From Candidatus Curtissbacteria bacterium (lineage in GTDB: Bacteria; Patescibacteriota; Microgenomatia; Curtissbacterales; GWA2-41-24), in NCBI GenBank assembly GCA_024654445.1, contig JANLHP010000017.1, positions 97,009-144,523 of the forward strand: a stretch of DNA of 47,515 nucleotides, given 5' to 3'. The notes below the pieces were generated by a model that did not search any database, was not told where the DNA came from, and saw only the letters and a program-made list of their open reading frames with translations. Positions 1 to 23,089 of the stretch are shown here, piece by piece; the stretch's first letter is position 1, and each line of letters begins with the position of its first letter. The position numbers and the translations under genes were made by a program.

Positions 1-983
1 TTTCCTAAATGGTCGATATCGTCGACTTTGCCTCTTTTGGCGACGAGTTCAAAAAGGTAGGCAATAGATGCGACAAAATCTTCGGCAGAGAGGGTGTACG
101 CTTCTTCTCCAGTTCGGTTTTCTTCTTTGCCAATTTTCTTTTTAATCGGCGCCAAGCGTTTTTCAACCTTGTACCTACCGACTTTGCCAAGAGAATATCT
201 GCGAGGGCTAAAAAACATGTTTTCCAAAAGAACTTTAGCGTTGTCTAGGATTACGTGGTCTCCTGGCCTCATTCTGCGATAAATTTCCAGGAGCGCTTCG
301 TCTTGATTCGCAGTTGGATCTTTTGCAAAAGTGTTTTCCAAAACGTTTCGAAATTCTTCGTCTTTGACAAAATTAAAGAGCTCCCAGATTTGTTCATTTG
401 TGCCAAATCCAATTGCTCGAAGAAAAGTTGTGACCGGGAATTTTCTTCTGCGGTCGATTTTAACTGTCAAAATGTCGTTTTTGGTGATTGCAAATTCCAG
501 CCAAGAACCAAGAAGCGGACGGATTTCGCAACTGTAAAGGATTTTTCCGGTTGAAGGGTCGATTTCCGCGCTGTAATAGACACCTGGGGCGCGAACCAAC
601 TGGTTAACAACTGCTCTTTCGATTCCGTTTACAATAAAGGAACCTTTTTCGAGCATCATTGGCAAATCGCACAAGAATACTTCCTGACTGATTTTTTGGC
701 CGGTTTGTTTGTTTAAAACTGTTGCTTCTACTTTTATAGGGAGATCGTATGTTACGCCTTTTTCGATTGCTTCTTCGGGGGTTCTTTTTGCTTTACCAAA
801 GCTGTAATTGCCGAATGTGAGTGTAAAGTTTTTAGCTGTAAAATCGTCGATCGGGGAAACTTCTGCAAGAACGTCGCTGATGCCTTTTTCCAAAAATTTG
901 GCAAAAGATTCCCTCTGGACTTCTACTAAGTCCAAGGGTGGTAACTTAGCAGTAATTGGTTTACCCCAGGAGATTCTTTGCAC
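1..983 (-). CDS. rpoB: RNA polymerase beta subunit, N-terminal part (runs off the window)
   Basis: The frame is open from a GTG at 983 to the window edge and gives the first 327 residues of RpoB, the catalytic beta subunit of RNA polymerase. Early residues read LPPLDLVEVQRESFAKFLEKG, the usual N-terminal beta motif. Near residues 112-133 the lobe segment FIVNGIERAVVNQLVRAPG is present. The GTG is chosen because an in-frame TAA lies 8 codons upstream and no ATG lies between. It has no good Shine-Dalgarno, and the stop of an open frame overlaps it (TAGTG). A strong promoter and a structured leader of about 180 nt lie upstream (1027-1199). No rplJ/rplL genes precede it, unlike the common rplJL-rpoBC order. 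Confidence 0.96.
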   Translation of the reverse strand, partial: MQRISWGKPITAKLPPLDLVEVQRESFAKFLEKGISDVLAEVSPIDDFTAKNFTLTFGNYSFGKAKRTPEEAIEKGVTYDLPIKVEATVLNKQTGQKISQEVFLCDLPMMLEKGSFIVNGIERAVVNQLVRAPGVYYSAEIDPSTGKILYSCEIRPLLGSWLEFAITKNDILTVKIDRRRKFPVTTFLRAIGFGTNEQIWELFNFVKDEEFRNVLENTFAKDPTANQDEALLEIYRRMRPGDHVILDNAKVLLENMFFSPRRYSLGKVGRYKVEKRLAPIKKKIGKEENRTGEEAYTLSAEDFVASIAYLFELVAKRGKVDDIDHLG

Positions 984-1026
984 TATTTTATAAGCTTGTT
1001 TAGGTTAAGTTCGAATTTGGCAGTTT

Positions 1027-1137
1027 CTACAAGTAGCTTACGCTGTTTTGTAGAGGATCAAACAAGACGGCTGTCTCCAAATCAAGTTGAGGATGATCCA
1101 CAGGGCTTCTTACACGACAAAAACCAAGAAGGTACAT
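1027..1137 (-). CDS. 36-residue upstream ORF in the rpoB leader (possible leader peptide)
   Basis: ATG at 1137 follows a perfect AAGGAGG (1143-1149) by 5 nt. The frame encodes 36 residues, MYLLGFCRVR to NSVSYL, and stops with TAG at 1027, 43 nt before the rpoB GTG. It is the first ORF downstream of the strong promoter at 1171-1199. The peptide has no recognisable domain. Translation signals this strong are rare in the window, so it may be a real leader peptide that couples translation to rpoB expression. It could also be a chance ORF behind a ribosome-binding structure. Coding potential is unproven. Confidence 0.45.
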   Translation of the reverse strand: MYLLGFCRVRSPVDHPQLDLETAVLFDPLQNSVSYL

Positions 1138-1149
1138 TAATACCTCCTT
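1126..1149 (-). promoter_or_regulatory. Hairpin hiding the Shine-Dalgarno of the rpoB leader ORF
   Basis: In the minus-strand RNA, AAGGAGGTA pairs with TACCTTCTT (9 bp, one G-U) around the 6-nt loop TTAATG. The ribosome-binding site lies in the stem and the ATG in the loop, so the fold would control initiation at 1137. Confidence 0.55.
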
Positions 1150-1170
1150 GTAAAGGTGTTTGTAGATCAA

Positions 1171-1199
1171 TTTATATCACTGGAAAGAAAGTTTGTCAA
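1171..1199 (-). promoter_or_regulatory. Promoter of rpoB leader (TTGACA-17-TATAAA)
   Basis: On the minus strand a perfect -35 TTGACA (1194-1199) is followed after 17 nt by TATAAA (1171-1176). This matches the housekeeping sigma consensus. Transcription would start near 1164, about 180 nt before the rpoB GTG. Confidence 0.8.
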
Positions 1200-1230: not shown

Positions 1231-1488
1231 CTAAAGGAATACGATGGTTAATTCTGTAAGTGCACCTTCACCTTCCCTTTGAACGAAAAGTTTCGTTCCC
1301 GATCTTAGTTCTTGAATCATTAATTCTGCAAAGTTTAGCCTTTGTCTTGCTTCAGCAGACACGCTTGTTTCTTTTTCTTCCGCTGCTCTTTCGATTGGCG
1401 CTACCTCTTTATGTGTTAAATTGAGATTAAAAGGTATACGTGTGTCTATTTTATAATGTGATGCTTTTCTTCCAGCTCTCTCCGCCAT
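1231..1488 (-). CDS. Hypothetical protein, 85 aa
   Basis: I do not recognise this 85-residue protein. It is basic at the N-terminus (MAERAGRKASHYK), then carries a strand-like piece (DTRIPFNLNL) followed by two helices (THKEVAPIERAAEEKETSVSAEARQRL). That arrangement loosely recalls ribbon-helix-helix proteins but is not diagnostic. It has no membrane segment. A TATTAT box (1496-1501) ends 7 nt before the ATG and no Shine-Dalgarno is present, so the mRNA may be leaderless, as for many genes here. It ends just upstream of the rpoB promoter. Confidence 0.5.
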   Translation of the reverse strand: MAERAGRKASHYKIDTRIPFNLNLTHKEVAPIERAAEEKETSVSAEARQRLNFAELMIQELRSGTKLFVQREGEGALTELTIVFL

Positions 1489-21604: not shown

Positions 21605-22966
21605 TTAAGCAGGCTTTTGGCCGTCGTCTTCATCTGGGTCTTGTGACTCAGTGTTTCCGTTTGTCGGAATGTCAGATTTGTCAGACTTCTCTGTATTGTC
21701 CGACTCATCGGCAGTCTCGCTCTCTGATTTTGCTGATTTATCTGATCCGCTGGTTTTCTGATTCTCTGAATCTTCCGAGGTTTCTGATTCATCTGATGTT
21801 TTTGGTTCTGGCTGAGCTTTATCGTCGCCTGGAGGTGCCGGTTGAGCTGCTGGTTCTGCGGCCGCGCTTGTAGTTTCTTCTGTCCCTGCTTCTTTGGGTG
21901 CTTTTGTTTCCCTTTGGTCCATTGACTTTTCTGCCTCTTTTGGCTTTTTTGGCTCAGTTACCCCCAAAGCTTTTTTCGCTTCTTCTTGAGCTGCCTTTTC
22001 TTTTGCTTCTACCTCTCGCGGCGAACCACTTTTACCTTGAATGTCTATTTTGTAACCGGTCAACTTCGCGGCTAGTCTTACGTTTTGGCCTTCTCTTCCG
22101 ATTGCCAAAGACAATTGATCGTCTGGTGCTGTAACTACTGCGGTCTTTTCTTCTTCATTTACGGTTACCTGAAGCTCTTTTGCGGGTGAAAGAGCGGCTT
22201 TAATAAATTCTGCAGGGTCCTCTTGATACGCGATGATATCTATTTTTTCGTCGCCTAACTCGTTCATAACAGCTTGGACCCTGACGCCTTTTTGGCCTAC
22301 GCAAGAACCAACTGGATCGACACCCATTTGGCTTGATGCGACTGCGATTTTAGACCTAGATCCGCCTTCTCTGGCGATTGCTTTAATTTCGACGCTGGCG
22401 GAAGAAATTTCGGGAACTTCCTGCTTAAAAAGAGCAGCCAGTAGACCTGGAGCGCTTCTGGAAACAATTATTTCTTCGCCTCGTGGGCCTTCTTTTATGC
22501 CAACTACGTAGAACTTTAGCCTTTGGTTTACCAAATAGTGTTCGCTATGAGATTGTTCGGGTGGAGGCATAATCCCTTCGGCTTTGCCAAGATTTACGGT
22601 AATAATCGGGCCAGAAATTCTCTGAATTATTCCGGAAACGACTGTGTCGATTTTTGCCGAATATTCCTCCATAATGGCGTTTTTTTCTGCTTCTCTTATT
22701 CGCTGCAGGATAACTTGTTTTGCCGTTTGGGCGGCAATTCTTCCAAAACCGGCGGGGGTTACGTCTTTTTTGCCTTTTTTTAGGGCAACTTCACCCGTAT
22801 TTGAGTCGAGTTCGACGTCTATTCCTTCGGGGTCACTGTAGTCTTTGCGGTAGGCTGCTAAAATCGCCTGTTTTATTGAATCGATAACCACTTCAGGTTC
22901 TACTCCGCGTTCGGAGCAAACCTGATTTAGTGCGCTTGCAAATTCTGTTCGTGCTTGAATAGCCAT
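21605..22966 (-). CDS. nusA: Transcription termination/antitermination factor NusA with long acidic tail
   Basis: NusA binds RNA polymerase and nascent RNA and sets pausing and termination. The N-terminal polymerase-binding domain (1-125), the S1 domain (VSGIIQRISGPIITVNLGKAEGIMP) and two KH domains (VGSCVGQKGVRVQAVMNELGDEKIDII and LAIGREGQNVRLAAKLTG) are present. After about residue 320 comes a low-complexity tail of about 130 residues rich in Lys, Glu, Ser and Asp. This replaces the usual C-terminus and looks disordered. A promoter and a terminator-like hairpin lie in its leader. Confidence 0.96.
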   Translation of the reverse strand: MAIQARTEFASALNQVCSERGVEPEVVIDSIKQAILAAYRKDYSDPEGIDVELDSNTGEVALKKGKKDVTPAGFGRIAAQTAKQVILQRIREAEKNAIMEEYSAKIDTVVSGIIQRISGPIITVNLGKAEGIMPPPEQSHSEHYLVNQRLKFYVVGIKEGPRGEEIIVSRSAPGLLAALFKQEVPEISSASVEIKAIAREGGSRSKIAVASSQMGVDPVGSCVGQKGVRVQAVMNELGDEKIDIIAYQEDPAEFIKAALSPAKELQVTVNEEEKTAVVTAPDDQLSLAIGREGQNVRLAAKLTGYKIDIQGKSGSPREVEAKEKAAQEEAKKALGVTEPKKPKEAEKSMDQRETKAPKEAGTEETTSAAAEPAAQPAPPGDDKAQPEPKTSDESETSEDSENQKTSGSDKSAKSESETADESDNTEKSDKSDIPTNGNTESQDPDEDDGQKPA

Positions 22967-23003: not shown

Positions 23004-23026
23004 AAAAAAAGGCGCTAAGTGCGCCT
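23004..23026 (-). terminator. Terminator-like hairpin inside the nusA leader (candidate attenuator)
   Basis: On the minus strand AGGCGC-ACTTA-GCGCCT is followed by a run of T (23004-23010). It lies about 30 nt after the predicted start of the promoter at 23061-23089 and 38 nt before the nusA ATG. Its position makes it an attenuator, not an end-of-gene terminator. Confidence 0.7.
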
Positions 23027-23060: not shown

Positions 23061-23089
23061 ATGATAGCAAAATGAAAAAGGAGAGTCAA
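23061..23089 (-). promoter_or_regulatory. Promoter of the nusA operon (TTGACT-17-TATCAT)
   Basis: TTGACT (23084-23089), 17 nt and TATCAT (23061-23066) on the minus strand. A GGAGAGTCA/TGACTCTCC hairpin (23080-23102) overlaps the -35 region. The leader is about 88 nt. Confidence 0.7.

Follow-up and report, generated by a model that had tools for sequence, protein, structure and literature searches.

How bacteria adjust their content of RNA polymerase (RNAP) is a long-standing question, and most of the work on it concerns a few model species. In Escherichia coli the leader of greA, termed GraL, carries an intrinsic terminator approximately 19 nt after the transcription start site, which polymerases read through in part and via which the gene is autoregulated (PMC6829880). 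The rimP-leader of rimP-nusA-infB operons is a short conserved terminator hairpin with no visible antiterminator, for which feedback by NusA has been proposed; the paper that describes it makes no mention of rpoB (PMC2965389). According to a review, Bacillus subtilis NusA controls its own synthesis through attenuation in the nusA leader (PMC12288461). Closer to the genes for the large RNAP subunits, the E. coli rplL-rpoB attenuator is characterised as a terminator upstream of rpoBC whose variable read-through sets the synthesis of the beta and beta' subunits (Newman et al. 1982, as cited in PMC6181997), and the L10 leader, or rplJL attenuator, is presented as a leader RNA that attenuates the transcription of a conserved gene-expression operon (PMC4538822).

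Here we report on the leader of rpoB in a stretch of DNA of 47,515 nucleotides, hereafter the window, and on its counterparts in related genomes. We propose, with a probability of roughly 0.6, that a hairpin in this leader, P1, attenuates transcription of the rpoBC unit from a promoter-proximal position, whereby termination itself is what we infer from the sequences. No description of this leader was found in Rfam or in open-access papers, which constitutes weak evidence given that the subscription literature lay mostly outside the scope of the search. The genome is that of a member of Candidatus Curtissbacteria, the group to which the relatives of the encoded protein also belong and which we take to be part of the class Microgenomatia.

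The rpoB leader and its hairpin in the window

The window contains the 5' part of rpoB on the minus strand (3..983, with a GTG start codon at 983-981), and rpoC is the next gene, beyond the window. Upstream of rpoB, and likewise on the minus strand, are a -35 element TTGACA (1194..1199) and, across a 17-nt spacer, the -10 element TATAAA (1171..1176), which together make up the promoter that the earlier note had described. An automatic promoter scan demanding a T at position 6 of the -10 element misses this TATAAA. Judging from the position of the -10 element the transcription start site would lie near 1163, and the leader up to the GTG at 983 would therefore measure approximately 180 nt (984..1163, minus strand), in agreement with the length proposed before. 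Further upstream, an 85-codon ORF without a Pfam match (1231-1488, minus strand) is located between mltG (YceG-like, 1525-2517) and rpoB.

The hairpin P1 (1125..1150, minus strand) resides between the predicted rpoB promoter and the start codon. Its sequence, CAAGGAGGTAT-TAAT-GTACCTTCTTG, is terminator-like, and its assignment draws on its fold, on class-wide covariation and on held-out matches to a covariance model. In the window P1 comprises 11 pairs including 2 G-U pairs (-13.5 kcal/mol), and the 60-nt segment that harbours it folds better than dinucleotide shuffles both in the window (z = -3.6) and over 13 relatives (mean z -3.7). P1 is followed by the T-tract TTTTT (1119..1123, minus strand), which is mirrored by T enrichment in the relatives, and directly thereafter by the motif GTYGTG/T (1113..1118, minus strand). 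The terminator-like character of the tail after P1, GTTTTTGTCGTG, was absent from the earlier note. On a terminator score of the d'Aubenton-Carafa type, calculated with our own implementation of the published formula, the P1 of the window attains only a moderate value of -21.4, with one G interposed between the stem and the T-tract.

Conservation across Microgenomatia and the parallel at nusA

We located rpoB in 103 of 109 relatives and extracted 90 leaders. An automatic search recovered the succession of promoter, hairpin, T-tract and rpoB in approximately 85 of these 90, and a few more were recognised by eye; the predicted near-consensus promoter occupies the same place 5' of the hairpin in most of the 90 relatives. 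In this conserved design approximately 14-20 nt separate the promoter from the hairpin, which the U-tract follows, and the hairpin ends at a fixed place (median +41, interquartile range 36-45). At offsets 1-5 behind the stem the fraction of T reaches 0.72-0.76; it drops to approximately 0.3 further downstream, and T is elevated solely within the first 12 nt or so. As a separate observation, an element TTGAATA or TTTAATA recurs near +5 to +14, just after the -10 element, in several Microgenomatia families (leaders L014-L034).

The stem reads GGGGUAY/GUACCUU in the Curtissbacteria, whereas the homologous hairpin of other families, GGCGUAC..GUACGCUU, retains the U-tract and is devoid of a Shine-Dalgarno (SD) sequence or an ORF. 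In 32 sequences taken from genomes of these other families, 98.4% of cells form the stem AGGCGUAC/GUACGCUU, compared to 29-53% for slid-helix controls. The earlier note had suggested covariation of the hairpin in relatives as a check, and the P1 helix does covary: 3 of its 8 pairs show two-sided changes in the 32 sequences. The presence of a conserved G-U pair argues for a function as RNA rather than as a DNA operator. More distant families exhibit the same design with unrelated stems, such as GCCGGU..ACCGGU or UAGGCGGC..GUCGCCUG, and so do four Levybacteria records outside the set, again with other stem sequences. The design is not general in the other classes of the phylum, where 6 of 30 rpoB leaders conform to it versus 5 of 150 shuffles, and the rpoB leaders of Chloroflexota and WOR-3 are mostly not terminator-like.

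The hairpin and U-tract characteristic of a promoter-proximal intrinsic terminator are moderate in the window and, as a set, surpass the controls: 54 of the 90 rpoB leaders score above -15, compared to 9 of the 71 control leaders, which follow exact consensus promoters mostly of the same family and class (Fisher p = 7e-10, albeit with a possible bias in that the controls are exact consensus matches and the rpoB promoters are the best pick within 330 nt). The same threshold is exceeded by 2 of 90 dinucleotide shuffles. A covariance model, R1, was built from the 32 sequences, and in a search of 101 relatives all 31 matches with E < 0.01 fall on rpoB leaders. In a class sample of 280 genomes, 35 loci were checked by tblastn, and rpoB is directly downstream at 34 of them (33 of 34 among the loci held out of training). 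Since the matches nearly all adjoin rpoB, the sequence family of the hairpin belongs to rpoB, and we rejected the notion of a multi-gene regulon. The sole checked held-out match (E < 0.01) away from rpoB, L362 (G246:C7:292174), is the second one in a genome that also carries a match at its rpoB leader.

A comparable arrangement is found at nusA (21605..22966, minus strand; Pfam NusA_N and KH_5). Here the promoter TTGACT-17-TATCAT (23061..23089, minus strand) is separated from the gene by a strong intrinsic-terminator-like hairpin, GGCGC-ACTTA-GCGCC followed by TTTTTTT (23004..23025, minus strand). Promoter-proximal terminator-like hairpins precede nusA in 26 of 30 Microgenomatia relatives, outside the Curtissbacteria mostly in the form GGTGGG..CCCACC with T5-7, and the nusA terminator is stronger than its rpoB counterpart. 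The earlier note regarded most other genes of the window as seemingly leaderless; nusA, at least, has a leader that resembles the one of rpoB. In a survey covering 380 kb of this genome a terminator-like hairpin was present within 80 nt of only 5 of 54 strong promoters, namely those of rpoB, nusA, rpsB (by way of a small ORF), one gene that is M23-peptidase-like and one unassigned gene, the last two of which were judged by sequence only. We considered rpsB as a third class-wide case and rejected it, because the feature occurs in 3 of 30 relatives and in Curtissbacteria only. Several Curtissbacteria (L142, 1504-1600; L177; L300; L307) have a promoter upstream of rpsB and, behind it, a terminator-like hairpin accompanied by TTTTTTTG; in L142 and L177 a small ORF is situated before rpsB.

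Alternative roles of the hairpin

P1 could alternatively stabilise the 5' end of the mRNA or provide a processing site, and the U-tract would then be incidental or engaged with the 5' end through an outer stem, P0. Several Curtissbacteria allow such pairing, of up to 9 pairs, between ACAAC at the 5' end and a GUUGU that comes behind the U-tract, and in some genomes P0 is striking; across the class, however, outer pairing does not exceed the level seen with shuffled flanks, and P0 was rejected as a candidate. The narrow confinement of the T enrichment behind the stem likewise speaks against this role, which we regard as unlikely.

We attach an equally low probability to the possibility that a dedicated repressor or antiterminator binds the RNA at the hairpin and acts on translation or on read-through; such a factor might be a ribosomal protein or RNAP itself. 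Recognition of this kind would be consistent with the top of the stem, GUAC/GUAC, being conserved in sequence across families, but the distant families preserve the design and not the sequence, and the curated covariance models of Rfam yielded chance-level matches only for the rpoB leader. The Curtissbacteria additionally possess a putative P2/P3 domain (1055..1099, minus strand), in which the P2 arms GGATCA (1099-1094) and TGATCC (1060-1055) would enclose a conserved CAACTTGATTT and an inner hairpin AGAC/GTCT (1076-1065); the family consensus is GGAUNA..UNAUCC with a conserved CAACUAGAUUU. Such a domain might serve as a protein binding site, yet the helix P2 fares poorly in statistical terms (mean z -1.1, a mean rank of 4.8 of 12 in a swap test, and covariation that is not significant), and we consider the domain tentative. 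The conserved block CCTGTGGATNATCCCAACAACTAGATTT occurs 25-70 nt after the hairpin in Curtissbacteria only (1055-1099 in the window, and leaders L003-L013), and its first part (TGTGGATNA) resembles a DnaA box in reverse.

The earlier note had envisaged that ribosome availability is sensed by translation of a 36-codon ORF whose SD sequence is locked in the hairpin, and that rpoB is controlled in this manner. The components are present in the window as described: an SD-like AAGGAGG (1143..1149, minus strand) lies within the 5' arm of P1, an ATG spans the loop, and the ORF (1027..1137, minus strand; no Pfam match) comprises 36 codons and terminates 43 nt before the GTG of rpoB. Their conservation is a different matter, as among the 13 Curtissbacteria the hairpin is kept whereas the full AAGGAGG is found in 4, the ATG in 1, and the reading frame is not maintained. 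Ten other Curtissbacteria carry a TTG within or next to the loop, which could be taken in favour of initiation at this site, but the frames that it opens vary from 8 to 30 codons, lose register with one another and have no peptide in common other than that encoded by the hairpin; in one exception (L008) the TTG frame continues into rpoB. The distances between conserved RNA blocks in the 13 genomes occupy all three residue classes modulo 3, and a conserved small ORF with an SD sequence, the hallmark of a leader peptide (uORF), was not found among them. Because the ATG, the SD sequence and the frame are not kept, and because the hairpins of other families do without an SD sequence, the 36-codon ORF is most likely incidental and probably not a gene, and ribosome sensing through it is very improbable. 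The conserved design of promoter, a short spacer, hairpin and U-tract points to transcription attenuation instead. What persists of the original proposal is the notion that the leader has been selected, which the conserved hairpin supports, and that it most likely regulates RNAP synthesis; what falls is the locked ORF as the sensor.

The least credible reading is that P1, being terminator-like and intergenic, merely terminates transcription from the upstream gene, since the rpoB promoter precedes the hairpin in practically all relatives and the upstream neighbour of rpoB in family f23 (G053, G036) is the divergent nusA, which rules out upstream termination as its general purpose.

A putative attenuator of rpoBC and its described counterparts

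The preferred reading, attenuation at P1, can be rendered as a sequence of events. Transcription would initiate at a strong sigma-70-type promoter, and after approximately 14 nt RNAP would transcribe P1 and subsequently the U-tract that ends near +45. At this point a fraction of the polymerases would pause or terminate and give rise to a leader RNA of approximately 45 nt, while the remainder would read through into rpoB and rpoC, so that the fraction reading through would set the synthesis of beta and beta'. RNAP production is thus probably tuned by the frequency of read-through past P1. Both the occurrence of termination or pausing at P1 and its size are deduced from the arrangement of the elements; since many rpoB hairpins are weaker than those of nusA and the score in the window is moderate, pausing or an effect on RNA stability may be at work in place of termination. 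An antiterminator hairpin, CCUU-N3-AAGG, would overlap the 5' arm of P1 and its positions look conserved in Curtissbacteria, but its folding energies are not better than those of shuffles.

The likeliest modulator would be the state of RNAP and NusA, because it is the elongation complex itself that decides between termination and read-through and because nusA has the stronger promoter-proximal terminator; an excess of polymerase and NusA would result in more termination. The proposal that NusA or another factor is the sensor at the rpoB leader is speculative, as it relies on the parallel with nusA. It can be extended, tentatively, to a coupled feedback in Microgenomatia, a possibility to which we give clearly less credence than to attenuation as such, in which the terminators of rpoBC and nusA are both read by the RNAP-NusA complex and rising levels of the complex lower read-through at both. 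In one relative (L252, 6487-17991) rpoC comes next after rpoB, and beyond a gap there is a fusA-like gene in the same orientation; an influence of the leader might therefore extend to translation genes further downstream.

The Microgenomatia, an entire class of genome-reduced and mostly uncultured bacteria, appear to have set one terminator directly after a dedicated rpoB promoter and a second one after the nusA promoter, with few further components. If true, this would represent a minimal self-referential control circuit that lends itself to in vitro tests with purified polymerase. The combination of promoter and hairpin moreover offers a compact landmark for annotating rpoB leaders in Microgenomatia.

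In comparison with the systems described above, the L10 leader differs in that at rpoB here there is neither an Rfam match to it nor rplJL directly upstream. The E. coli rpoBC attenuator shares with the Microgenomatia leader the placement of a terminator upstream of rpoBC and the proposed control by read-through; in contrast, it is located, as far as the citing source relates, inside an operon that rpoB shares with ribosomal protein genes, between these and rpoB, rather than directly behind a dedicated rpoB promoter. The rimP-leader (GGGc..gCCC before rimP or nusA) finds its likeness in the nusA leaders of Microgenomatia (GGUGGG..CCCACC with U6), whereas the rpoB hairpin, with its stem GGCGUAC/GUACGCUU or GGGGUAC/GUACCUU, differs from it in both stem and gene. 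GraL acts at a different gene, one that encodes an RNAP factor, and bears no sequence relation to the rpoB leader, where regulation is putative; in geometry the two are nearly the same.
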